A stretch of 47,792 nucleotides of DNA, from the NCBI GenBank assembly GCA_947177485.1, contig CAMWUR010000010.1, positions 1 to 47,792 of the forward strand, written 5' to 3'. Of the stretch, positions 17,487-42,352 are shown one piece after another. The stretch's first letter is position 1. Every line of letters starts with the position of its first letter. This DNA is from an uncultured Helicobacter sp. GTDB lineage: Bacteria > Campylobacterota > Campylobacteria > Campylobacterales > Helicobacteraceae. Made by a program: the position numbers and the translations under genes. Below the pieces are notes generated by a model. The model was not told the DNA's origin and did not search any database. It saw only the letters and a list, made by a program, of their open reading frames with translations.

Positions 17487-17522
17487 TTTTTTCTAAATAT
17501 TTTATCATGTTGAACATTTTGC

Positions 17523-17682
17523 CATGTTGAGCGGAGCGAAATATCTCGTCATTATGATTCTAGCTTTCCTTGCGTCCTAATGGACGCTCGCAATGACATC
17601 CAATTGTCATTCTGAACGCGAAGCGTGAAGAATCTTAAAATGTAAATATCATGAGATATTTCGCTAGCGCTCAACATGACAA
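17523..17682. repeat. dispersed palindromic repeat cluster (GTCATTCTGA family)
   Basis: This lies in the 337-base gap between the EAL and chemoreceptor genes. A 25-base arm at 17523-17547 (CATGTTGAGCGGAGCGAAAT plus ATCTC) recurs inverted at 17653-17678. Inside, 17604-17682 is a complete repeat unit running from TTGTCATTCTGAAC to CAACATGACAA, the same edges as the in-gene copies at 35348 and 36755. Between them CGTCC-TAAT-GGACG (about 17573-17586) is a small hairpin followed by CTCGCAATGACA. The block looks like one repeat element inserted beside or into another. Confidence 0.8.
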
Positions 17683-17712
17683 TCGGAGGCTGGATTCAGT
17701 CGCACACAAAAT

Positions 17713-17730
17713 GTGCGGTTAAAACCGCAC
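17713..17730. terminator. small GC hairpin in the EAL-chemoreceptor gap
   Basis: GTGCGGTT and AACCGCAC are perfect inverted arms around AA, so a 6-8 bp stem. It is followed by CCCCC, not by a T run, so factor-independent termination is uncertain. The rest of this gap to 17823 shows an AT-rich stretch (TGATAACATCAT near 17789) that may be the chemoreceptor promoter, and the GGGGAGG ribosome site. Confidence 0.35.
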
Positions 17731-17823
17731 CCCCAACAGCCTTTATTTGCTATTGCTCTAGGTATATTTGGTGCTTTAAGCCGAAAAATGATAACATCAT
17801 CTTAGTTTAGTGGGGAGGTTAGC

Positions 17824-30577: not shown

Positions 30578-30616
30578 AAGCCTCACAAATTGCAGAGGCA
30601 GACAAAGGAGCGCATA

Positions 30617-32428
30617 ATGGCTGTTGTTTTACAAATCGGAGCGGGTGGCGTTGGGGGCGTTGTTGCGCACAAAATGGCGATGAATCGCGAGGTGTTTTCA
30701 CGCATTGTGCTTGCTTCGCGCACGCTTAGTAAATGCAGGGCAATCGCGGATTCGATTCGCGCCAAAGGCTTGGGCGAGATTGAGATTGATGCAGTAGATG
30801 CCGACAATGTGGAATCTCTTGTGGCTTTGATTGAGAAATATCGCCCAAAGCTCGTGGTGAATGTCGCACTTCCTTATCAAGATTTAAGCATTATGGAGGC
30901 GTGTTTGCGCACGCGCACGCATTACCTCGACACTGCGAACTACGAGCACCCCGATTCCGCGCATTTTGAATACAAAGAGCAATGGGCGCTGGACGCGCGC
31001 TACAAAGAGGCGGGAATCTTCGCTCTGCTTGGCAGCGGCTTTGACCCGGGCGTTACAAATGTGTTTTGTGCGTATGCGCAGAAGCATTATTTTGATGAGA
31101 TTCATTCTATCGACATCTTGGATTGCAACGCGGGCGACCACGGATACGCGTTTGCGACAAACTTCAATCCCGAGATTAATCTGCGCGAGGTGAGCAGCAA
31201 GGCGCGATATTGGGTGGCGCGCAACGCGTCCCATGCGAATGGGAGCGATTCCACGAATCCCCCCTCCCATACGCATCGAGGGGGACACGATTCCATAAGT
31301 TCCCCCTCCCTTGCAGAGGGGGCTAGGGGGTGGGTGTCGCCTTTTGATTCTAAAAAAGCGCTCGCTGATTCCAAATCATCATCTTTTGATTCCAAAGGAG
31401 CACCTTCCTCTTGTTGTCATTCTGAGCGAAGCGAAGAATCCCTTATCTCCCAAACCGATTTGAATCTCAACCCCGATTTGCAACAAGACACGATTTATCG
31501 CAAGTTTGAGCGCAATGAAAAGCATTTTGCGCTCGAATCCAACACGCAGGATTTGCAGGTGGTGGATTATGCAGGGGGGCAGTGGCGCGACATCGCACCG
31601 CTTGCGTTGATGAAAGAATGGGACTATCCCGAAGTGGGCGTGAAAAACTCGTATCTTTTGTATCATGAGGAGTTGGAATCTTTGGTGCGCAATGTGCGGG
31701 GGCTCAAGAGAATCCGCTTTTTTATGACCTTTGGCGAGAGCTACCTCACGCACATGAAATGCCTCGAGAATGTCGGGCTTTTGCGCGTGGATTCTGTGCC
31801 GCACAAGGGCGGGTTTATCGTGCCTATCGAGGTGCTCAAGACCCTGCTGCCCGACCCCGCGAGCCTCGCGCCCCGCACAAAAGGCAAGACGAACATCGGC
31901 TGCTATATGCGCGGAGTGAAGGACGGCAAGGAACGCACGATTTATATTTATAATGTTTGCGAGCATGAGAAATGCTATGAGGAAGTCAATGCGCAAGGCG
32001 TGAGCTACACCACGGGCGTGCCCGCGATGATTGGCGCGAAGCTGATTTGCGAGGGTAAGTGGGGCGTTGGCGCAAAAAAGAATGTGGCTTGCACGCAATC
32101 TTCGCAGGAGCTTGAAAAATCCTCACTCGATAGACCCCAAGTCTTATCTCAATCGGATTTTTCGGCGCAACCTGCAAATCTTACGCACAATCCGCATTCT
32201 TTGGAATCTTATAATGCCGAGCGTTTGGAGGCAAACAAGGATATGCCAAAGGGTGGCGAGGCGCAAGGTGTGGATTCTGCGCAAGGTGCGGGCGTGTGGA
32301 ATATGGAACAAAACGACCCCGACTTTTTCATGCAGGAACTCAACAGGCAGGGGCTGCCGTATGTGGTGTTGGAGGTGGAGAATGATGGGGAAGTTAGGGT
32401 GGTTGAAGATGGAAGGAAGCCCATTTAA
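30617..32428 (+). CDS. carboxynorspermidine/carboxyspermidine dehydrogenase, enlarged
   Basis: A 603-residue saccharopine-dehydrogenase-like enzyme that reductively condenses a diamine with aspartate semialdehyde in spermidine synthesis. Family blocks are clear: VLQIGAGGVGGVVAHKMAMN (NAD(P)-binding), YLDTANYE, GFDPGVTNVFCAYA, DCNAGDHGYAFATNFNPEINLREVSS, YHEELESLVRN, MTFGESYLTH, IYIYNVCEHEKCYEE, SYTTGVPAMIGAKL. The usual length is about 400. Two low-complexity insertions make up the difference: about residues 207-318 (contains SPSLAEGARGW and CHSERSEES repeat peptides) and about 484-556 before AGVWNMEQNDPDFFMQEL. Both leave the frame open. ATG 30617 follows AAAGGAG. The first insertion falls near the substrate domain and should form a surface loop. 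Confidence 0.88.
   Translation: MAVVLQIGAGGVGGVVAHKMAMNREVFSRIVLASRTLSKCRAIADSIRAKGLGEIEIDAVDADNVESLVALIEKYRPKLVVNVALPYQDLSIMEACLRTRTHYLDTANYEHPDSAHFEYKEQWALDARYKEAGIFALLGSGFDPGVTNVFCAYAQKHYFDEIHSIDILDCNAGDHGYAFATNFNPEINLREVSSKARYWVARNASHANGSDSTNPPSHTHRGGHDSISSPSLAEGARGWVSPFDSKKALADSKSSSFDSKGAPSSCCHSERSEESLISQTDLNLNPDLQQDTIYRKFERNEKHFALESNTQDLQVVDYAGGQWRDIAPLALMKEWDYPEVGVKNSYLLYHEELESLVRNVRGLKRIRFFMTFGESYLTHMKCLENVGLLRVDSVPHKGGFIVPIEVLKTLLPDPASLAPRTKGKTNIGCYMRGVKDGKERTIYIYNVCEHEKCYEEVNAQGVSYTTGVPAMIGAKLICEGKWGVGAKKNVACTQSSQELEKSSLDRPQVLSQSDFSAQPANLTHNPHSLESYNAERLEANKDMPKGGEAQGVDSAQGAGVWNMEQNDPDFFMQELNRQGLPYVVLEVENDGEVRVVEDGRKPI
31258..31335. repeat. C/G-rich dispersed repeat inside the dehydrogenase gene
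   Basis: CCCCCCTCCC...CGAGGGGGAC and CCCCCTCCCTTGCAGAGGGGG CTAGGGGG form two overlapping hairpin-like units. Read in frame it gives PPSHTHRGGH...SSPSLAEGARGW. Peptides of this style recur in bacterial genomes carrying protein-coding palindromic repeats. Not present in ordinary members of the enzyme family. Confidence 0.6.
31414..31440. repeat. partial GTCATTCTGA repeat inside the dehydrogenase gene
   Basis: TTGTCATTCTGAGCGAAGCG followed by AAGAATC is the left half of the dispersed repeat seen at 17604 and 35348, read in frame as CHSERSEES. The right half (ATTTCGCT...ATGACAA) is missing. Confidence 0.7.
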
Positions 32429-32471: not shown

Positions 32472-33494
32472 ATGATAAAAGATTTTGAGATTGAAAATTT
32501 TCGAGGGATACGATCATTAAAGCTCGAAGGATTTTCAAATGTGAATATTTTTGTAGGCAAGCCAAATACGGGAAAAACCTCGATTTTGGAGGCTTTGTAT
32601 TTGTATTTATCGAAACACCCAGATGCAATAACCAATATCTTAGAATTTAGAAAAACTGTGGTTGATAAGGATTGCTTTCAGGGTTTTTTTTATGATTATG
32701 ATTTAAACAATCAGATTATATTAACAAATGACGATGAAGAGTTAAAAATACATTGTCGCAATAATCACTATACAAATATTATGATTGATGGCTCACAGCA
32801 AAAAGATAAAGGGGTTAATGAAATGAGTCTTGAATACCATAAGTCCAAAAGCAAGAGAACAATGAGAATCTCAAAGACATTTCCAAATCCATTTCAAATA
32901 CATTTTCAAGCTAATTTAACCTCTTTTGAAAGCAATCAAATTAATTCAGAAAAAGCTGATTTTGTTAATGAAAGCAATTCTTATGAAAATATTCTAAAAA
33001 GGAACTTGGAGACAATTTTATCAAACAAAATAAACAAAGAAGTATTAAATAAATGCCTTAAAAAGTTTTCTAGCAATATTCAAGAAATTAGTTTTTTGGA
33101 TAGCAGAGTTGTGATACAAAAGGAAAATTTAAATAATGTAATTAGCCTTAAATTAATGGGAGCAGGATTTCAAAAATATGTTGCAATTATATTATCGATT
33201 TTACAAAATAAGAAATATATATTTATTGATGAAATAGAAAATGGATTACATTTTGAGAGTATTGATTTGTTATTGGAAGCTATCTTAGAAGCCTCCAATA
33301 ATGTTCAGTTTTTTATTACAACACACAATGAGGAACTTTTGAAACATTTAAGTGTCTTGCTTGAAAATGGAGATAAAGAAAGTGTTGCTGTTTTTAATGT
33401 ATATATAGATAAAGATTCTAATATACAGGCGGGTCGATATTCGCAGAAAAGCTTTGTTTTTAATACAGAACATAACAATGAAATGAGGGATTAA
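32472..33494 (+). CDS. AAA/ABC-type ATPase of OLD/AAA15 family, defence-linked
   Basis: A 340-residue RecF/SMC-like ATPase. IKDFEIENFRGIRSLKLEGF is the usual opening of the family. Walker A is GKPNTGKTS (29-37), the signature-like loop is LMGAGFQKYVA, Walker B is FIDEIENGLH (D253, E254) and the H-loop is ITTHNEE (H285). The central part is Asn/Lys-rich and shorter than a coiled coil. No TOPRIM is fused; the next gene, 4 bases on, supplies one. The pair recalls split OLD nucleases, Gabija GajA and the PARIS AriA/AriB pair. Codons are AT-rich unlike the genes before 32.43 kb, so transfer is likely. AAAGGAGAA precedes ATG 32472. Confidence 0.82.
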   Translation: MIKDFEIENFRGIRSLKLEGFSNVNIFVGKPNTGKTSILEALYLYLSKHPDAITNILEFRKTVVDKDCFQGFFYDYDLNNQIILTNDDEELKIHCRNNHYTNIMIDGSQQKDKGVNEMSLEYHKSKSKRTMRISKTFPNPFQIHFQANLTSFESNQINSEKADFVNESNSYENILKRNLETILSNKINKEVLNKCLKKFSSNIQEISFLDSRVVIQKENLNNVISLKLMGAGFQKYVAIILSILQNKKYIFIDEIENGLHFESIDLLLEAILEASNNVQFFITTHNEELLKHLSVLLENGDKESVAVFNVYIDKDSNIQAGRYSQKSFVFNTEHNNEMRD

Positions 33495-33498
33495 AGAC

Positions 33499-34107
33499 AT
33501 GCTTATTATAGTAGAAGGAAAATATGATGTTGGCTTTTTAGATATTTATTTGCAATATTTGGGAGTAGGAGTAAAAGATTATAAGTTTCATGAAGTTGGA
33601 GGAAATAAGAACTTAGAAAATCAACTCAATAAAGAAGTAGAAACAGATGAAGATAAAAAAGAAAATTTACGTGAAAAAATTAATAAGGCACTAAAAGAAG
33701 GTAAAAAAATTAAGATTATTTTTGATAGAGATGATAATTATGAAAGTTCGCTACAAAATATTAAAAAACAATTAGACAATGACCTATTACCAAAGTGTGA
33801 GATTTTTCTGATTCCTAATAATCAAGATGAGGGTAATTTGGAGGATTTGTTTTTTAGAATAGTAAAGGAAAAGGATATTTTAAAATGTCTTAGAAGAAGT
33901 CGTGAATGTATTGAAAAAATTGACAGTGAAATTCCAAATTTTGAACCACCAGATAAAAAAGCTGTAGTTTACGCTTATGCTCACATGTTCGGGGGTGCAA
34001 TTAAAGATGGAAGAATTAAGCTAAAAGGCAATATTTTAGACATACTAGACTTAAATAATGAATATCTACAACCACTCAAAAACTTTTTATTAGACATAAA
34101 AGATTGA
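33499..34107 (+). CDS. TOPRIM-like DUF3226-type protein
   Basis: A 202-residue protein. IIVEGKYDVGFLD (E6) and IIFDRDDN (D76, D78) match the Glu and DxD motifs of a TOPRIM catalytic core; PNNQDEGNLEDLF further on fits the DUF3226 pattern. A metal-dependent nuclease is the simplest inference. It follows the ATPase after 4 bases and probably acts with it: ATPase senses or is triggered, TOPRIM partner cuts DNA or RNA. PARIS AriB is a DUF4435 TOPRIM protein, so this is related in layout but not the same family as far as I can see. The stop overlaps the region just before mod. Confidence 0.72.
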   Translation: MLIIVEGKYDVGFLDIYLQYLGVGVKDYKFHEVGGNKNLENQLNKEVETDEDKKENLREKINKALKEGKKIKIIFDRDDNYESSLQNIKKQLDNDLLPKCEIFLIPNNQDEGNLEDLFFRIVKEKDILKCLRRSRECIEKIDSEIPNFEPPDKKAVVYAYAHMFGGAIKDGRIKLKGNILDILDLNNEYLQPLKNFLLDIKD

Positions 34108-34118
34108 GGACAAGTAGA

Positions 34119-37100
34119 ATGATAGATTACAAAAAAGCATTTTACAGCAAACTAGAAGACTGCTACTTAGGCGTGAAAATCAAAGTTTTTCACAAAAGCA
34201 ACACTGCCAAAAGTGGCTTTAGCAATCTGCTTAAAATCAAAGAGCAATATTTTGCCCATATCAAAACTTATTTAGAATCACAGATTGAAAGTGAGCCACT
34301 CTCGCACGATATTTACAACAAACTTTTCACTTTCTTTGATAGCTATTTGAATGAGAGCGGCACACCCTTTTTCAACGATACGCCCATCTATAAAAACATC
34401 TATGCCAAAGTGTATAGCAACTCCAAAGACACAAGCCTATTCTACAAAACACAGAATCTCTACTATGTCAAATCCGATATTCTCTACCAAAGCCTCACTC
34501 TAAGCGATGAGCAAGAAAGCTACGAAGTCGTTTTTGATGCAAGCGATTATAAACAAAATGCAGATAATGCTAAAAATAAAGTGCTATTCAAACTAGATTC
34601 CATATCTTGTAATGAGCCTGTAAATACAGACGAAGAACCTCATAATCAAATCCTCATCAAAGTTATCAACCAAAAGGATTTATTCCCAGAGCTCAATAAT
34701 GTATTCAAGCAAAATTCAAATGAATTTAGCGAGGATTTTCTTAAAAGCTTGAAGCAAAAGAAACTAAAATTTAACGAAGAAAGCCTCAAAAAAATCTTTA
34801 GAAGCTACAAAAAACAAAGTGAAATAGACTTTTTTATCCACAAAAACGCCAAAGCCTTCTTGCAAGAACAATTTGATTTATGGATGTTTTACTATCTCTA
34901 TCAAGAAAGCGGGATTCAAGAATGGAATCCCAACATCATAGCACATTTGCAAAAAATTAAAAATATCGCCCATGAAATCATTAAACTCATTGGTGATTTT
35001 GAAAATGAATTAAAAAACATTTGGCTAAAGCCCAAATTTGCTAAAAAAGTGGAATATGTTTTTAGCGTGGATACAATACTTCAGCATATAAATAATGCAA
35101 CTACACTTTTAGAATCGATTGCAAATGACAAAGGTTTTGAAGTCCAAATCAAAGAATGGCAAGAATTAAATTTAATTGATGAAACTTTTGATAGAGAGGA
35201 TTTTATTGTGTCATTGCGAGGCAAAGCCGAAGCAATCTACAATCATGCAAAAAATAGAGATTCTATTGTGGAGACTCAAATTGTCGATTGCCACGAGGCA
35301 GAGCCTCTCGCAATCACAGATTCTATCAGCACAGAATCTAGCAATCTTTGTCATTCTGAACCTGCTTTGGCAGGTGAAGAATCTCAAAATATAAAATCTC
35401 AAGAGATATTTCGCTTCACTCAATATGACAAAGAAGCAAATTGTCATTCTGAAGTCTTGCGTAGCAAGGCTAAAGAATCTAAAAATAACAAATACCGCTA
35501 TCTCCCCATAGATACAAAGCACTTCACCAAAGAAACAAAATATCAGATTCTAAGTAGTTTTGAAGATTTAGAATCCCTGCTCAATGGCGAACTCATCAAG
35601 TCGGATAATTTCCAAGCCCTCAATACCCTAATGCCCAAATATCAAGGCAAGGTAGATTTGATTTATATCGACCCGCCTTATAATGCCCCTGCAAGTGAAA
35701 TTATCTATAAAAATAATTTTAAAGATTCTACATGGCTTTCTATGATGGAAAATCGTTTAAGAATGGGGAAGGAGTTTTTAAGCAAGAGAGGGATTCTAGC
35801 TTGTGCGATTGATGAAAATGAGCAGGAAAATTTGGGGTTACTTTTAAGTGATATTTTTTATGAATATGAAAAAACTTGCGTGAGTGTTGAACATAATCCA
35901 AAGGGAATACAAGGAGATAATTTTTCATATAGTAATGAATTTGCTTATTTTTTGATTCCACAAAATACTGAAATACAAAACGAATTTGTGGAAATGCAAT
36001 ATAAAGAACTAATGAAAACGGGGAAAGAATCAGAAAGGCATACTGCAAAAAATTGTTTTTACCCCATTTATATAAAGAATTCTCAAATTATTGGTTTTGG
36101 AGAGGTATGTAAAGATGATTTTCACCCAAAACAGAAGATTATTGACAATGGAGATTTTTTAGAAATTTATCCTATTGATTCTAATGGAAATGAAAGAAAA
36201 TGGCGTTATGCAAGGGAAAGTATCGAAAAAGTAAGAGATAATTTAAAAGCGTTTATGACAAAGAACTCAATAACTATAAAATTAGGTAAAACAGAGAAAT
36301 CTTTCAAGACGATGTGGTATGGCGCTAAATATAGCGCAACGGAATATGGGAGCAAGATTCTAAAAGATATTATTCCGTATAATGAATTTGACTATCCTAA
36401 ATCTATTCACACAGTAAAAGATTCTATTTATTTGGCAAGCAGGGAAGATTCTATCATTTTGGATTTTTTTGGTGGGAGTGGCACAACAGCCCACGCAGTG
36501 TTGGAACTCAATAGAGAGGGTTCAAATCGAAAATTTGTGCTAGTAGAGCAAGGGGAACATTTTTATAATGTGATGATTCCACGTATTAAAAAAGTCGCCT
36601 TTAGTAGTGAATGGAAAGATGGAAAGCTAAAAGGCAATAAACAAATAAAGCCTTTGAGTATCGCTTTTCGCTACTATGAATTAGAATCTTACGAAGAGGT
36701 TTTGAGCCATTGTGAATATGTGCTAAAAGATTCTTGTCATTATGAATCCTCCCCTTGTCATTCTGAACCTGCTTTAGCAGGTGAAGAATCTCAAAATATA
36801 AAATCTCAAGAGATGTTTCGCTTCGCTCAACATGACAATGAAATCTACAAGGGCAAAGACTATGCTAAGGCTAAGGCGATACTAGACTACCGCAAATCCC
36901 GCAAGCTCATTGATAGGTTGCATAAAGGCGAGATTGTATGCCTAGATATGCGCACAGAGTATAGAGAGGAGTTTGATATTTTTCACACTATGGCAAATTT
37001 AATGGGCTGGAAAATCAAGCGATTGTTTTTGGATTCCAAAGGCATAGAATCTTGTGAGTTTGATAATGGCGAGATTATCTCTTTAGATTCGCTAGACTTA

Positions 37101-37142
37101 GCCAAATACCCAAAACTTAGAAATCTAATATGGTGGGAGTAG
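34119..37142 (+). CDS. mod: type III DNA methyltransferase Mod (N6-adenine, beta class)
   Basis: A 1007-residue site-specific DNA methyltransferase. DPPY at about 518-521 (IYIDPPYNAP) precedes FxGxG at about 784-788 (LDFFGGSGTTAHAVL), the beta-class order of type III Mod. The segment between, about 570-760, is the target-recognition region and gives the specificity. The N-terminal 500 residues are extra relative to compact Mod proteins and of unknown role. Two 28-residue copies of a dispersed repeat peptide (CHSEPALAGEESQNIKSQE) sit at about 410-437 and 879-906, in frame. ATG 34119 follows GAGGA. With res at 39497 it should form a restriction-modification system, though three other genes separate them. 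Confidence 0.9.
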   Translation: MIDYKKAFYSKLEDCYLGVKIKVFHKSNTAKSGFSNLLKIKEQYFAHIKTYLESQIESEPLSHDIYNKLFTFFDSYLNESGTPFFNDTPIYKNIYAKVYSNSKDTSLFYKTQNLYYVKSDILYQSLTLSDEQESYEVVFDASDYKQNADNAKNKVLFKLDSISCNEPVNTDEEPHNQILIKVINQKDLFPELNNVFKQNSNEFSEDFLKSLKQKKLKFNEESLKKIFRSYKKQSEIDFFIHKNAKAFLQEQFDLWMFYYLYQESGIQEWNPNIIAHLQKIKNIAHEIIKLIGDFENELKNIWLKPKFAKKVEYVFSVDTILQHINNATTLLESIANDKGFEVQIKEWQELNLIDETFDREDFIVSLRGKAEAIYNHAKNRDSIVETQIVDCHEAEPLAITDSISTESSNLCHSEPALAGEESQNIKSQEIFRFTQYDKEANCHSEVLRSKAKESKNNKYRYLPIDTKHFTKETKYQILSSFEDLESLLNGELIKSDNFQALNTLMPKYQGKVDLIYIDPPYNAPASEIIYKNNFKDSTWLSMMENRLRMGKEFLSKRGILACAIDENEQENLGLLLSDIFYEYEKTCVSVEHNPKGIQGDNFSYSNEFAYFLIPQNTEIQNEFVEMQYKELMKTGKESERHTAKNCFYPIYIKNSQIIGFGEVCKDDFHPKQKIIDNGDFLEIYPIDSNGNERKWRYARESIEKVRDNLKAFMTKNSITIKLGKTEKSFKTMWYGAKYSATEYGSKILKDIIPYNEFDYPKSIHTVKDSIYLASREDSIILDFFGGSGTTAHAVLELNREGSNRKFVLVEQGEHFYNVMIPRIKKVAFSSEWKDGKLKGNKQIKPLSIAFRYYELESYEEVLSHCEYVLKDSCHYESSPCHSEPALAGEESQNIKSQEMFRFAQHDNEIYKGKDYAKAKAILDYRKSRKLIDRLHKGEIVCLDMRTEYREEFDIFHTMANLMGWKIKRLFLDSKGIESCEFDNGEIISLDSLDLAKYPKLRNLIWWE
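35348..35431. repeat. 84-nt in-frame repeat, copy 1, in mod
   Basis: Starts TTGTCATTCTGAACCTGCTT and ends ATGACAA, with near-palindromic edges TTGTCAT/ATGACAA. It is exactly 28 codons and differs from copy 2 at 4 of 84 bases (A/G or C/T changes). It translates to CHSEPALAGEESQNIKSQEI..FRFTQYD, rich in polar residues. It lies between the N-terminal region and the catalytic core. Confidence 0.85.
35440..35480. repeat. partial repeat directly after copy 1 in mod
   Basis: ATTGTCATTCTGAAGTCTTG CGTAGCAAGGCTAAAGAATC begins like a new unit (TTGTCATTCTGAA) with a small internal hairpin (CTTGCGTAGCAAG) and ends at AAAGAATC; the right half is missing. Read in frame as CHSEVLRSKAKES. Confidence 0.7.
36755..36838. 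repeat. 84-nt in-frame repeat, copy 2, in mod
   Basis: Same edges, same length and same frame as copy 1, with 80 of 84 bases identical. Preceded by a short TTGTCATTATGAATCC remnant at about 36734-36749. Translates to CHSEPALAGEESQNIKSQEM..FRFAQHD, near the C-terminus of Mod, after the FGGSGTT motif. Confidence 0.85.
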
Positions 37143-37145
37143 GGA

Positions 37146-37658
37146 ATGAGCGAAGATGAAACTTTAGAAAATATCAAAAAAGAAATTAAAAGAATTATGG
37201 AAGATACCGAATATTCATATAAGGGGCATTTGGAGAGTGCAACGTATTGGCGATATGGAAATTATGTGCTGATGATAATATCTTTTGTTATTACATGTAT
37301 ATCTTTAAGTATCACATACGGTGATATAGGCAAGTTATCTAGTATTTGTATCTCTGCTCTATCAGGATTTTTTATGATGTTACTCATTTTTTTAAATACT
37401 CAAGAGAAATATATCTCACACTATAAAAGTGGAAATAAATATCTTAAACTTAGAAATAAGGCAAGAATATTTTTAGAAGTAGAATCTAGAAATATGAGCT
37501 TAGAACAACAAATGGAATCTTTGAAAAAGCTAAATTCTAAAAGAAATAAAATAAATAAGCACTCTTTGCCTATTGCCTCAATGGGATATAAGGGTGGAAA
37601 AAAGCAGATTGAAATAGATAAAAATACGCAATACCAAGTGGATAAGGAGCAAGAATGA
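37146..37658 (+). CDS. SLATT-domain two-pass membrane protein (CBASS-type effector)
   Basis: A 170-residue protein: a charged helical start with SATYWRY, two adjacent hydrophobic segments (about 39-57 and 65-84) joined by a short loop, then a cytoplasmic helical tail (HYKSGNKYLKLRNKARIFLEVESRN) ending in polar, Lys-rich sequence. This is the layout of SLATT proteins, proposed to form membrane pores on nucleotide second-messenger binding. It overlaps the nucleotidyltransferase start by 4 bases (ATGA), which fits a dedicated effector-synthase pair. It starts 3 bases after mod with its own weak site. Codon use is AT-rich. Confidence 0.78.
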   Translation: MSEDETLENIKKEIKRIMEDTEYSYKGHLESATYWRYGNYVLMIISFVITCISLSITYGDIGKLSSICISALSGFFMMLLIFLNTQEKYISHYKSGNKYLKLRNKARIFLEVESRNMSLEQQMESLKKLNSKRNKINKHSLPIASMGYKGGKKQIEIDKNTQYQVDKEQE

Positions 37659-38494
37659 GCGTGAATAGCTATTTGAATGATTTGGCAGAAAGAGCAATTG
37701 TTAGGGATAATGAGAAGAATAAAATTCAAACTTCTATTAAATCTATTCTTCAAAGATTGCAACGATTTGATGAAAGTAATGGGTTTTCCCTTGCCTCAAA
37801 AAATCAAATCCACAAATACTGTATCTTTGGTTCTTATAAAAGAAAGACAATTATATCAAGGCAATTTGATGAAAATTCTGATGTTGATATAATGGTTGTT
37901 TTTGGAAAGAAATTTGACGGATTTTATCATTATGAAGTTAGAAACAATTACCCCAAAAAACCACAAATATATTTAAATTACCTTAAAGAATTTGCAGAAT
38001 TAAGCTATTCCCGCTCTGAAATTTATCAAAGCTTTCCGTCTGTAGTTTTGGAGCTCAATCATATAAAGTTTGATTTAGTTCCTGCTATTATTGATGATTG
38101 GAATAATTACAGAATACCAAATAAACAAAATTGGTATCAAACGCAAGTTTTGGATTGGATTACAACTAATCCAAATGATTTAGATGGTGCATTAGCAGGT
38201 AATCAACCCTTAAGGCGATTGGTAAGGGTAGCCAAAATATGGAACGCAAAGCAAGGACGCATTTATGAATCCTATGGGCTAGAAAAATGGATAACACAGC
38301 AATGCGATTTATCTAAGCGCCCCTTTTTGAGAGGAGATTATAGTCTATCCGAGTATTTTTACAGATTTTGTGAATTATTGTCTTGTTGGGGTTTGCCTGA
38401 ATATAAACAAAAGAAAATTGAAAGATTGCAAGAAGCTGCAAAGGAAGCTGAATGTTTTAATAATGAAAATTGTATTAAAGATTTATTTGAGTGA
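37655..38494 (+). CDS. CD-NTase-like nucleotidyltransferase (SMODS type)
   Basis: A 279-residue DNA polymerase beta-like nucleotidyltransferase. IFGSYKRKT at 58-65 supplies the GS motif, SDVDIMVVF at 75-83 the two metal aspartates D76 and D78, and KFDLVPAI the third acid D140. A helical C-terminal domain (LRRLVRVAKIWNAKQ onward) follows. This is the arrangement of cyclic-oligonucleotide synthases of CBASS. With the SLATT gene overlapping upstream it would form a minimal (type I) CBASS: phage signal, cyclic nucleotide made here, membrane effector opened. No Cap2/Cap3-type ancillary genes are present. The product nucleotide cannot be read from sequence. Confidence 0.78.
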   Translation: MSVNSYLNDLAERAIVRDNEKNKIQTSIKSILQRLQRFDESNGFSLASKNQIHKYCIFGSYKRKTIISRQFDENSDVDIMVVFGKKFDGFYHYEVRNNYPKKPQIYLNYLKEFAELSYSRSEIYQSFPSVVLELNHIKFDLVPAIIDDWNNYRIPNKQNWYQTQVLDWITTNPNDLDGALAGNQPLRRLVRVAKIWNAKQGRIYESYGLEKWITQQCDLSKRPFLRGDYSLSEYFYRFCELLSCWGLPEYKQKKIERLQEAAKEAECFNNENCIKDLFE

Positions 38495-38505
38495 GGTTAA
38501 AATCT

Positions 38506-39504
38506 ATGCCCAATCTCCTCCTCTACACCACACAAGATAAAAAAATCAAGGTTGAGCTTTATGAACTTGGCGAGAGTGTGTATCTCAATCAAGATTCTAT
38601 CGCCAAGCTTTTTGACACCTCGAAATCTAGCATCAGCGAGCATATCACAAATATCCTCAAAGAGGGGGAATTGCAAGCAGATTCAGTTATTCGGGAAATC
38701 CGAACAACTGCTACCGATGGTAAACAATACAGGGTGAAATTTTATTCTCTCGAGATGATTTTAGCTATTGGCTTTCGTGTGCGAAGCAAACGAGGAGTGC
38801 AGTTTAGAATCTGGGCAAATGAGCATTTGGCTAGCTACCTGCAAAAAGGTTTTGTGATTGATAGTGAGCGATTAAAAAATCCAAATGGCAGGACGGATTA
38901 TTTTGATGAACTCTTAGAACAGATTCGTGATATAAGGGCAAGTGAGAAAAGGTTTTATCAAAAAGTGCGAGAGCTTTTTGCTTTGAGTGCAGATTATGAT
39001 CCAAGCGACAAAGCAACACAGATGTTTTTTGCGCAAACACAAAACAAACTTTTGTATGCAACTACACATAAAACCGCAGCAGAGTTGATTTGCGAACGAG
39101 CTAATGCGAATGAACCAAATATGGGGCTAACAAGCTGGAAAGGCAATGTTGTGCGTAAAGGCGATGTGATTATTGCCAAAAATTATTTGAGTAAAGAGGA
39201 GCTAGATATTCTCAATCGTTTAGTCAATGTATTTTTAGAATCCGCAGAACTTAGAGTGAAGGACAAACAAACTTTGACAATGGAGTTTTGGAGGCAAAAT
39301 GTAGATTCTTTGCTCACCTTTCAGGGCAAAGAAATCTTAAAAGACAATGGAAGTATTTCTAATGCGCAAATGGAGCAAATCGCCTATGAGCAATATCAAC
39401 TTTTTGAGGAGCAACGCAAAAAGGAGGAATTGCTGAAGGCACAAAAAGAAGATGAAGAAATTTTGGAATCCACCTATAAAGCACTGAAAGGCAAAAATGG
39501 CTAA
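38506..39504 (+). CDS. RhuM-family protein
   Basis: A 332-residue protein. NLLLYTTQDKKIKVELYELGESVYLNQDSIAKLFDTSKSSISEHI is the RhuM opening, with a helix-turn-helix-like segment (LNQDSIAKLFDTSKSSISEHI), then FYSLEMILAIGFRVRSKRGVQFRIWA. It continues as alpha-helical sequence with a C-terminal region (LSKEELDILNRLVNVFLESAELR). The family is known from genomic and restriction loci and is thought to act on DNA or as a regulator or toxin-like module; its function is not settled. It starts at ATG 38506 behind GAGG and overlaps res by 8 bases, so it is translated with res. Confidence 0.78.
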   Translation: MPNLLLYTTQDKKIKVELYELGESVYLNQDSIAKLFDTSKSSISEHITNILKEGELQADSVIREIRTTATDGKQYRVKFYSLEMILAIGFRVRSKRGVQFRIWANEHLASYLQKGFVIDSERLKNPNGRTDYFDELLEQIRDIRASEKRFYQKVRELFALSADYDPSDKATQMFFAQTQNKLLYATTHKTAAELICERANANEPNMGLTSWKGNVVRKGDVIIAKNYLSKEELDILNRLVNVFLESAELRVKDKQTLTMEFWRQNVDSLLTFQGKEILKDNGSISNAQMEQIAYEQYQLFEEQRKKEELLKAQKEDEEILESTYKALKGKNG

Positions 39505-42352
39505 AGTAAAATCCACAGCACAATTAGCACAAAAAGAATTGATTCTAAAAGAAATCATTGCTCCAAAGATTCAAGATAGCGAATCTTTGCTAAATAGCTT
39601 TGATTTGCAGAGTTTTTCGCATACTATTTCTTTGCAAGATTATCAAATTGCTGCGCTTAAGAGCGCCATAACTGCCCTAAATTTTTACGCACAAAATGCT
39701 GATGAATTATATCAACGCTATTGTGATTATGGAGTAGGGGATATTGCACAAGAGCAAATCAATACCGCAAGCTTTTGGATGGCAACAGGGAGCGGAAAGA
39801 GTATTGTAATGATAAAGCTGATTGCGCTTTTGCATAGCCTAATGACAAATGGTGTATTTCCCAAAAAGCCAATCATGCTCCTTGTGCCAAATGATAAGAT
39901 TTTGGAACAATTTAAGGATCATATTGCAGAATATAACACTTACCAAAGCAAGGCTATCAGCATTAAAGATTTAAAGGATTATGAAAATGTGGCGGCTTAT
40001 GCTTCACTCTTTGATGAGAATGTCGTCTTTATTGGACGCAGTGATTTGCTTGATATTGACGAAAATGTCGGCAAGGATTCCAAAGCAAAACGGCTGAATT
40101 ATAAAAACTTCCTCAACAAAGAAGGCTGGATTGTCCTGCTTGATGAGGCACATAAGGGCGATAGCAAAGATTCTGTACGGAAAAACTACATCAGGGAACT
40201 TGCAAAAGGCTTAGATTCTAAAGAATCTAACAATTTCAAAGGCTTTATCTTTAATTTCTCCGCAACCTTTAGTGATAGTTTTGATTTGCAAACTTGTGCG
40301 TTTAATTATAATTTAGAAAAGTTTAATCTTGAGGGCTATGGCAAAAATATTGCGGTGTTAGATTCTGATTTGAAAGCCTTTAGGAATAAAGAAAAAAATG
40401 AGGAGCAAATCGTAAAAATCTTAGAGAGTTTTATACTCTTTTGCGCGATGAAAAAGCATAGAGAAAACATAATGCAAGAATTTAGCAAGAGTTTAAAACT
40501 TGCCTATCATCAACCGCTGATTATTGCTGTTGCAGATAAAGTCAATACACAAGATGCTGGGATAAAGCTTTACTTTGAAGCGATTTTACAGATTTTAAAA
40601 GAGGATAGAGACATTACGTCTTTAGCGCAAAATCTCTATGAGAATCTTTCACAAAATCAAAACTTGTATTTTGATAAGAATATGTGCTTAGATGAGGAAT
40701 TTTTAGGGCTTATTCAGACAATGGATTCTAAGACTTTAAGAAAAGAAATTTTTTATGCCAAAGAAGCGTCTATGATTGAGGCGTGTAAGATAAAGGGTAA
40801 CACCAAAGAGATTGTCTTTAAGTCTAAAAATGCCAAAGAGCCCTTTTTGCTTTTAAATATTGGGAGCATTCGAGAGTGGGAGAGGCAATATTTACAACAT
40901 CTCGGCGTTGAGAGTGGCGAGGACATCACAGGCGGATATTTTCAAAGCATCAATGAACAATATTCACCGATACAAATTATGATGGGAAGCAAAGTCTTTA
41001 GCGAGGGTTGGGATAGCAACCGCGTGAATATGATTAGCTTTATTAACATAGGCAGTAAAAATGCAAAAAAATATGTTTTGCAAACCATTGGACGAGGTGT
41101 GAGAATAGAACCTTTTAAGGGAGTGAGAAAAAGGCTTGGACAATGTGAGGGGCTTGATTTTAATCTGCGGGAGAGATTTCGCAATAAAGCTTTAGGCATT
41201 GAGATGCTTTTTATAATGGCAACTCAAACAGAGGCGATAAAGGGGATTTTGGAGGGATTAGAGGAATTTATCCAAAGCTACCCCTTAAGTGGCTTTAGAA
41301 AAGGCAAAACATTTAAGCCCTTGCTTGTGCCAAAATATAAAGATTCTACTGCTTTGCAAAATAAGCCTTATATTCTCTCACGATGTGATTTTGAGGAGCT
41401 TAAAAGTTATATAGAATCCTTTGATGAAGATGTGCTGCTTTTGAGCGAGAACATAAGAGCGAAAGATTTAGGTTATAAAACATTATGTAAAATTAAAGAA
41501 AAAATGACAAATGATGGTGAGACACAAGCAATTGAAATTAGCGGAGATATACCAACGCTTAAAGCAGAGAATACTTTGAGAGTTTTAGAGAGTTTCTTTC
41601 ATGCTAAGAGCAAAGAATTTGAAAGGTTTGCAGAAATTGACAATGAAATTTGCCATTATGAGAAGTTTAGCTCCACGCTTGATTCTATTATTGTAGAAGA
41701 AATGAATAAAAAGATTAGAGAGCTTGTATCGGCAAAAGACACAGAAACAAGAGAGGATTTAGAATCTAAAGGAGTGCCAAAAGAGTATGTAGACACGATT
41801 CTACAATCACAATACAACAAGAGGAATGCTGAAGTCTATGGATATATTTTAGATTCTAGTTTGCAAGAGCATTATTATAATCCCTTAGTGATTGATAAGA
41901 AAAATGATAGCAGAATTATTTATGCGATTAGAGAAGCAAGTGAAATAGAATTTTTACAAGATTTGCAACAATATTTGCAAGACAACAATAACGTTTTAAA
42001 GCAATACGATTGGTGTTTCAGTCGGATTGTTGAAAATGTGGATTCGATTTATATCCCTTATTTTGATGAGGAGAAACAAGAGTTTAGAAAATTCTATCCT
42101 GATTTCATCTTTTGGCTTAAGGCTAAGCAAGGCAATAAATATAAAATCTTTTTTATTGACCCAAAAGGCTTAAGACTGGAGGCGAATGCTCGTTGTAAGC
42201 TTCAAGGTTTTAAAAATATTTTTGAGAAAAATTCAGTTAATTTTGATAATTTTCATATTGAAATATTTTTATTTTATTACAATAAACAAAATTATCAAAT
42301 TCCTATTATCCAAGACCATATTAAATCGACTATTGCAGAATTGTTTGTATAA
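39497..42352 (+). CDS. res: type III restriction enzyme Res subunit
   Basis: A 951-residue ATP-dependent endonuclease. Helicase motifs: ATGSGKS (about 95-101), LLDEAHKG (about 214-221), FNFSATFSD, and QTIGRGVRIEP (about 527-537). The C-terminal nuclease shows FYPDFIFWL (PD at about 867-868) and FFIDPKGLRL (DPK at about 888-890), a PD-(D/E)xK site. It partners Mod to cut unmodified DNA after ATP-driven communication between sites. All motifs look intact. ATG 39497 lies in the end of the RhuM gene, which has AAAGGCAAAA as a weak site. Confidence 0.9.
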   Translation: MAKVKSTAQLAQKELILKEIIAPKIQDSESLLNSFDLQSFSHTISLQDYQIAALKSAITALNFYAQNADELYQRYCDYGVGDIAQEQINTASFWMATGSGKSIVMIKLIALLHSLMTNGVFPKKPIMLLVPNDKILEQFKDHIAEYNTYQSKAISIKDLKDYENVAAYASLFDENVVFIGRSDLLDIDENVGKDSKAKRLNYKNFLNKEGWIVLLDEAHKGDSKDSVRKNYIRELAKGLDSKESNNFKGFIFNFSATFSDSFDLQTCAFNYNLEKFNLEGYGKNIAVLDSDLKAFRNKEKNEEQIVKILESFILFCAMKKHRENIMQEFSKSLKLAYHQPLIIAVADKVNTQDAGIKLYFEAILQILKEDRDITSLAQNLYENLSQNQNLYFDKNMCLDEEFLGLIQTMDSKTLRKEIFYAKEASMIEACKIKGNTKEIVFKSKNAKEPFLLLNIGSIREWERQYLQHLGVESGEDITGGYFQSINEQYSPIQIMMGSKVFSEGWDSNRVNMISFINIGSKNAKKYVLQTIGRGVRIEPFKGVRKRLGQCEGLDFNLRERFRNKALGIEMLFIMATQTEAIKGILEGLEEFIQSYPLSGFRKGKTFKPLLVPKYKDSTALQNKPYILSRCDFEELKSYIESFDEDVLLLSENIRAKDLGYKTLCKIKEKMTNDGETQAIEISGDIPTLKAENTLRVLESFFHAKSKEFERFAEIDNEICHYEKFSSTLDSIIVEEMNKKIRELVSAKDTETREDLESKGVPKEYVDTILQSQYNKRNAEVYGYILDSSLQEHYYNPLVIDKKNDSRIIYAIREASEIEFLQDLQQYLQDNNNVLKQYDWCFSRIVENVDSIYIPYFDEEKQEFRKFYPDFIFWLKAKQGNKYKIFFIDPKGLRLEANARCKLQGFKNIFEKNSVNFDNFHIEIFLFYYNKQNYQIPIIQDHIKSTIAELFV

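Follow-up and report, generated by a model that had tools for sequence, protein, structure and literature searches.

In-frame palindromic doublets in a type III methyltransferase gene of a Helicobacter sp. and GIY-YIG nuclease genes bracketed by REP hairpins

Introduction

The gene for the type III DNA methyltransferase Mod of an uncultured Helicobacter sp. contains a palindromic sequence of 84 nt twice, and on both occasions the reading frame passes through it. This raises the question of what these units are, and how they could spread into a gene without closing it. The gene lies in the window analysed here, by which we mean the complete stretch of 47,792 nt (contig CAMWUR010000010.1); the relevant features are listed in Table 1. 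Short palindromes with a CGTC tag form a superfamily of REPs that apparently has no dedicated transposase and whose spread was left open (Di Nocera et al. 2013, PMC3733652). This superfamily includes dRS3 of Neisseria as well as RPE-4 and RPE-6 of Rickettsia, and some of its copies are located inside genes (PMC3733652).

Table 1. Repeat features and their host gene in the 47,792-nt window
Feature	Position	Strand	Basis
Lone half-unit, non-coding	17519..17547	-	
Non-coding doublet, 79 nt (not divisible by three)	17604..17682	+	
Single unit in frame (CHSERSEES) in carboxynorspermidine synthase-like ORF	31414..31440	+	
Type III Mod, 1012 aa, host of the inserts	34104..37142	+	PF01555 (N6_N4_Mtase) E 6e-23; PADLOC MTase_III E 6e-138
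Site-1 insert, 273 nt (91 codons), repeat units and short joins	35208..35480	+	Missing in homologues; boundaries are repeat ends
Second-family doublet (TGTCATTGCGAGG...GCAATC ... inverted partner TCGCAATCACA)	35208..35319	+	Sequence
Copy 1, TGTC-tagged hairpin doublet, 84 nt	35348..35431	+	
Single hairpin unit of the same family as copy 1, after copy 1	35441..35480	+	
Repeat-unit fragment preceding copy 2	36734..36754	+	
Copy 2, TGTC-tagged hairpin doublet, 84 nt	36755..36838	+	

Results

As an earlier sequence-only reading of this DNA had noted, the two 84-nt units are identical at 80 of 84 positions, comprise 28 codons each and are read in one frame of the Mod ORF, their common-frame translation being CHSEPALAGEESQNIKSQE. 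What had been described as a partial third unit after copy 1 proved to be a single repeat unit, and a repeat fragment accounts for the supposed remnant that precedes copy 2. Among the 65 full doublets of the genome, copy 2 is the nearest relative of copy 1 and vice versa (0.95), while the next best values are 0.87–0.88. Since the two copies are mutually nearest, one of them probably derives from the other through gene conversion or local copying. It is also possible that recombination between them deletes 1407 nt of mod, in frame.

By 4 nt, mod overlaps a DUF3226 gene with a match to AbiLii, which together with an AAA ATPase gene matching AbiLi occupies positions 32472–34107 directly 5′ of it. 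A ResIII-family gene is located downstream at 39497–42352, and the interval between Mod and Res (37146–39504) encodes a 2TM effector-like protein, a SMODS oligonucleotide cyclase and a RhuM-family protein. These genes include a CBASS-like pair within the type III restriction operon.

The insertion sites in Mod were delimited by alignment with homologues from 121 family genomes. At site 1, homologue matches end at residue 368 and restart at residue 460, and in three genomes (G068, G065 and G119) the equivalents of these two residues are directly adjacent in the DNA. At site 2, matches end at residue 876 and restart at 912–925, and both parts are adjacent in G102. Mod homologues in other genera thus lack both inserts, and the boundaries at site 1 coincide exactly with repeat ends. 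The site-1 insert is larger than the sequence-only reading had it, as it consists of a second-family doublet, copy 1 and the single unit; the stretch begins on a TGTCATTGCGA unit and finishes on AGAATCT. The repeat of this second-family doublet belongs to the family that brackets a GIY-YIG nuclease gene in a congener (G001).

Both sites also carry other inserts in other genomes. The flanks of site 2, EYVL and NEIYKGKDYAK, are conserved and the content between them varies by genome: CHSEPALAGEES... in the window, CHTEALAEVSQQ... in G040, SLRGSKADEAI...SRND in G119 and RHCEQSEAI...SRNDK in G001. At site 1, the Mod frame of G001 continues through an insert of ~300 residues that comprises a DUF559 nuclease domain (E 1e-33) and GC-rich repeats (PTPPARGG, LTPSAKGGG). 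Both Mod sites are permissive linkers used by several repeat families in different genera, and the presence of different families at the same two sites implies that inserts stack on older ones or replace them.

A search of the whole genome (G000; 2.04 Mb in 97 contigs) with copy 2 returned 44 DNA matches. The pattern TGTCATTCTGA-N40-70-TCANNATGACA identified 65 full doublets, and half-units numbered 285; the reversed-pattern control gave 0 in both cases, so that the copies are not due to chance. The non-coding copy at 17604–17682, pointed out before on account of its shared edges, is real. Each 84-nt element consists of two inverted hairpin units with TGTC near each outer end. The five-base outer stem is closed in 122 of 130 units, with ATTCT/AGAAT in left units and ATGTT/AACAT or ATATT/AATAT in right units. 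Of the 130 units, 116 have a GA/GA internal loop, and within these we counted 47 different inner hairpins, mostly self-complementary. The hairpin is therefore kept by covariation, the sequence changing and the pairing staying. Furthermore, the single strand of copy 2 folds better than its shuffles (z −2.69).

Full copies located deep inside long ORFs numbered 10, in 7 genes. All ten have a length divisible by three and share one strand and one phase, compared with 22 of 55 doublets divisible by three elsewhere in the genome, a contrast that is partly survivorship because an open ORF was required. The CHSE frame, as read from the sequence, is one of few that are open across the doublet, and its peptide is hydrophilic. 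At least 8 genes carry in-frame copies among the stretches that were read, a tabulation from searches and reading that may be incomplete, and 5 of these 8 are restriction-modification genes: the Mod described here, a second Mod, an Eco57I/MmeI-type methylase and two HsdS genes. The remaining three are a nucleotidyltransferase–GIY-YIG fusion, one unassigned ORF and, in the window, the carboxynorspermidine synthase-like ORF. Empty sites, dispersed copies and these frame counts together bear out the proposal that dispersed palindromes are tolerated as in-frame insertions, as in Rickettsia, and we regard the in-frame insertion of dispersed doublets into genes as virtually certain. That the inserts are inverted doublets of a REP family, that several families share a site and that nuclease genes are bracketed by such repeats had not been part of the sequence-only reading.

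Some observations on individual copies are added here. The carboxynorspermidine synthase-like ORF (30590–32428) has an NCBIfam match below the cut-off and contains, near its CHSERSEES unit, a SPSLAEGARGWVSP stretch that resembles the DUF559-linked repeats described below. One HsdS gene (L073; contig C6, 24096–24591) shows a 306-nt tandem duplication with two doublets per copy. Exact matches to a 27-nt unit, TGTCATTCTGAGCGAAGCGAAGAATCT, were present in Acidobacteria, Chloroflexi, Bacillota, Nitrospirae, Planctomycetes, Bacteroidota and others, among the matches listed (L093–L172). At 120 loci from different phyla that carry the 27-nt core unit, no Pfam family was enriched in flanking ORFs of 90–450 aa, a size range that misses short ORFs. 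By direct tblastn, small GIY-YIG matches were detected at 6 of these loci, though some lay away from the unit.

The nucleotidyltransferase–GIY-YIG fusion was the lead to an association between the repeats and a nuclease. At C13:24548–24949 the genome has a stop-free element of 402 nt with TTGTCAT/ATGACAA ends, in which a GIY-YIG gene lies between two REPs and the CHSE frame is open throughout (CHSDLECNEREESQ...GIY-YIG...RDTSALLQYD). This element carries the only such GIY-YIG gene of the genome. The corresponding gene of G001 encodes 95 aa with its own start and stop, has an HsdM-like and an HsdS-like gene as neighbours, and is bracketed by TGTCATTGCGA units, resulting in an element of 386 nt. 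In yet another genome (L195) the REP–GIY-YIG–REP element measures 384 nt. A GIY-YIG homologue was found in 37 of 397 genomes of the phylum. The catalytic residues Y15, G17, R25, H29 and E62 are invariant in 38 sequences, and the match to PF01541 reached E 8e-17 in L230.

Bracketing was scored with a generic hairpin form, (C/T)GTC-ATNNN...N'N'N'AT, within 250 nt of the GIY-YIG gene. At the 24 closest loci, hairpins were present on both sides in 10 cases versus 0.8% of control positions, and on at least one side in 16 cases versus 12.7% of control positions in the same loci; relatedness is uncorrected in both comparisons. Six more distant GIY-YIG genes had no bracketing hairpins of the generic form. 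A strict test was applied to annotated records from Planktothrix, Rhizobium, Shinella, Neorhizobium, Sinorhizobium, Neisseria, Azospirillum, Sphingobium, Photobacterium, Aeromonas, Spirosoma and Novosphingobium, and it detected hairpins on both sides at 7 of 14 loci versus 3.4% of control positions (relatedness again uncorrected). Reading of the flanks added bracketing on both sides for Sinorhizobium (CCTCATCCCTGTGCTCGTCACAGGGATCC), both Sphingobium loci (CGTCACCCCGGGCTTGACCCGGGGTCCC) and Novosphingobium (CGTCGCCCCGTGCTTGACACGGGGC). The hairpins that bracket the Neisseria gene have the dRS3 form, and the Azospirillum gene sits between sufB and sufC. We are confident that this GIY-YIG clade is truly bracketed by REPs in several phyla.

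In other genomes, the nuclease and CHSE-type repeats were likewise encountered in frame within host proteins, namely in an Eco57I-type methylase (G043) and in HsdS (G044). In RNase R of G064 (L306), a very large in-frame CHSERSEES-type stretch with GIY-YIG is located between the first and second OB domains. A Hint splicing domain was not found in the fused proteins, only the host and nuclease families, which means that by sequence neither the GIY-YIG nor the DUF559 fusions are inteins. The GIY-YIG protein is identical over 95 of 95 residues in G001 and G042 (L288, L289), two genera, and the bracketing repeats are near-identical, which suggests that this element was recently transferred. In G086 (L352, L355–L360), several GIY-YIG copies are interrupted by stop codons and are apparently decayed nuclease elements.

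DUF559 nucleases have repeats of their own. At eight loci read by eye and without control (Azospirillum, Deinococcus, Sphingomonas, E. coli, Neisseria, Synechocystis, L192 and Mod of G001), GC-rich palindromes of the CCTCACCC/CCCCTCCCC type accompany the DUF559 gene, mostly on both sides. In L192 (3341–5038, minus strand), the frame of a valyl-tRNA synthetase includes DUF559, which separates the catalytic domain from the anticodon-binding domain. The Sphingomonas DUF559 gene lies between sufB and sufC, the position of the GIY-YIG gene in Azospirillum. The DUF559 cases in Mod, in valyl-tRNA synthetase and in Sphingomonas were noted at L245 (residues 344–448), L192, L339 and L341. As the enzyme of the TGTCAT repeats, DUF559 was rejected, being absent from the Helicobacter genome and accompanied by different, GC-rich palindromes.

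The association was also assessed at the level of whole genomes, by counting YGTCATTNYGA in the 121 family genomes and seeking an intact GIY-YIG gene by profile. Each of the 10 genomes in which the gene is intact reached 42 hits or more (median 70), whereas the median of the other 111 is 10, with 20 of them reaching at least 40. The gene and the REP count were associated (Mann–Whitney p 4e-5, Fisher p 2e-7), relatedness inflating both values. The 20 REP-rich genomes without a detectable intact gene include G002, which has 28 doublets and is 61% complete. Such genomes fit gene loss or movement in trans, and they also fit independence of the REPs from the nuclease. On Sphingobium plasmids, a site between fnrL and a response-regulator gene holds REP–GIY-YIG–REP in some strains, the bare palindrome CGTCACCCCGGGTCAAGCCCGGGGTGACG in TomTYG64, an imperfect palindrome in TomTYG74 and neither of these in TomTYG72 and TomTYG65. 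This site shows gain or loss of the REP–GIY-YIG–REP element.

Discussion

Together these findings favour the view, which we hold to be rather likely, that the inserts in Mod are doublets with outward TGTC tags of a dispersed repeat related to the CGTC-tagged REPs, and that a GIY-YIG nuclease mobilises them. Most likely, the 84-nt doublet represents a REP–GIY-YIG–REP element in its non-autonomous form, which lacks the nuclease. The coding form of such an element, a GIY-YIG nuclease gene between two REPs, measures about 385–400 nt. Its nuclease would cut at or near REP hairpins, repair would copy element DNA into the resulting break, and the new copies would land beside older copies or replace them. 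Inside genes, the survivors would be the copies that are in the open, hydrophilic CHSE frame and have a length divisible by three. Dispersed copies, hairpins, clean empty sites, several families at the same sites, bracketing in several phyla and in-frame coding elements in other genes were observed; from these we infer, with somewhat more belief than doubt, an active nuclease that recognises the REPs and is responsible for moving the doublets. The REP-rich genomes without a detectable intact gene speak against this view, and so does the mutual likeness of copies 1 and 2, as local conversion alone explains it.

The main rival is that the GIY-YIG protein is a homing endonuclease that parasitises REPs as landing sites, while the REPs themselves spread otherwise, by gene conversion, template switching or an unidentified transposase. 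In its favour, a bare palindrome is present at the Sphingobium site that holds REP–GIY-YIG–REP in other strains, REP-rich genomes without the gene are common, and the same Mod sites were occupied by successive families. Nevertheless, we consider this explanation unlikely, though worth serious attention, since the gene is enclosed by two complete inverted units whose tags point outward, arranged like the gene-free doublets and open in the same frame. This arrangement and frame are expected if the doublet and the gene-bearing element are two forms of one thing.

Mobilisation by the nuclease was further weighed against the idea that the repeats are inert relics, neutral and subject to local recombination only, and that their link to the nuclease is a by-product of flexible, horizontally acquired regions. 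Copies in the same gene are indeed mutually nearest, and the in-frame copies are mostly in restriction-modification genes. However, bracketing exceeded that of control positions in the same loci many-fold and extended to housekeeping contexts (sufB/sufC) and several phyla, and near-identical non-coding copies are dispersed in the genome, some of them at contig ends and maybe parts of longer repeats. Inert relics are therefore improbable. Still more improbable is that the doublets are REPINs moved by the RAYT (REP-associated tyrosine transposase) of the genome. A single Y1_Tnp-family gene does exist (L275; C13:29031–29312), but it is bracketed by a different palindrome, GTGCGACTAAAGTCGCAC, and its 3.3-kb locus contains no TGTCAT unit, so that RAYT was rejected as the mobiliser. 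In line with this, no RAYT flanked by CGTC REPs had been found previously (PMC3733652). The GTGCGACTAAAGTCGCAC palindromes of the RAYT-like gene are a separate REP family; a similar palindrome occurs near the non-coding doublet of the window, at about 17700–17735. Finally, although one protein holds two near-identical in-frame copies, the thought that Mod has in these 28 residues a conserved functional domain, universal among homologues and without other copies, can be set aside almost entirely, because the residues are missing, with clean boundaries, from homologues in other genera and the genome holds hundreds of further copies, mostly non-coding.

CGTC-tagged REPs, their intragenic copies, the missing dedicated transposase and RAYT-linked REPINs were already published (PMC3733652, PMC3116915). 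New here is a small GIY-YIG nuclease bracketed by REP hairpins in several phyla. GIY-YIG is not mentioned in the survey of CGTC-tagged REPs (PMC3733652), and in the open-access literature searched we found no link of GIY-YIG to REP, CGTC or dRS3. The literal repeat motif was not found in open-access literature either, and DUF559 combined with palindromes returned unrelated matches only.

The bracketing suggests what spreads the repeats, sometimes in frame in working genes. On a wider scale, the chances seem to us evenly balanced that REP–GIY-YIG–REP nuclease elements of ~0.4 kb form a widespread class, of which the CGTC/TGTC REPs, among them dRS3 of Neisseria, would be non-autonomous parts, with a parallel DUF559 class that has GC-rich CCTCACCC...GGGAGAGGG palindromes, and that some of these elements are translation-transparent, open from end to end in one frame, and can live, like their gene-free copies, inside genes, even the essential valS. 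If the GIY-YIG nuclease is the missing enzyme, the spread of CGTC-type REPs becomes directly testable in bacteria, and some of the commonest short bacterial repeats, as well as many repeat-encoded peptides in predicted proteins, would be explained. It would also represent a mobile element adapted to translation inside host proteins, recurring at the same restriction-modification linkers, whose insertion could affect the evolution of defence proteins.

Among known systems, the CGTC-tagged REPs are defined by a CGTC, TGTC or CCTC tag, a stem of 8–9 bp starting with AT, a loop of 4–5 nt and a tail that is mostly CCA, and they occur mainly as inverted dimers (PMC3733652). The units described here share the tag, with TGTC at their outer end, the AT at the start of the stem (the outer stem of AT plus three bases being closed in 122 of 130 units) and the inverted dimers, 65 as full doublets; moreover, a RAYT is not adjacent and some copies lie within genes. 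They differ in having a 5-bp outer stem, a GA/GA internal loop, a variable inner hairpin and a tail that is mostly CTC, not CCA. Since tag, AT start and dimers match and stem and tail do not, we place the units beside, not inside, the four described families.

RAYT-linked REPINs, the REPIN-RAYT systems or REPtrons (Bertels and Rainey 2011, PMC3116915), resemble the present system in that non-autonomous inverted doublets occur together with the gene of an enzyme that cuts DNA, and that copies of the same REP bracket this gene. The enzyme here, however, is GIY-YIG and not an HUH tyrosine transposase, and the RAYT of this genome has other repeats (GTGCGACTAAAGTCGCAC). MITEs are likewise short gene-free copies that share inverted ends with a larger coding element, but the parent proposed here carries a nuclease and not a known transposase; no target-site duplication was established, as the empty sites compared were too diverged or already REP-bearing. 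The enzyme itself is a member of the GIY-YIG nuclease family, with the domain and the conserved catalytic Tyr, Arg and Glu. A small nuclease in frame within a host protein is also typical of inteins and free-standing homing endonucleases (GIY-YIG; DUF559/Vsr-like), from which the elements described here differ in three ways: a splicing domain was not found, the gene is bracketed by REPs, and many REP copies exist without the gene. A parallel to the inserts in Mod is offered by the palindromic elements of Rickettsia (RPE), which are found in genes of many kinds whose products are expected to work. As with RPE, a palindrome was inserted in frame in an intact gene and is absent from homologues; unlike RPE, host group and sequence are different, several families reuse the same linkers, and nuclease-coding elements are also carried in frame.
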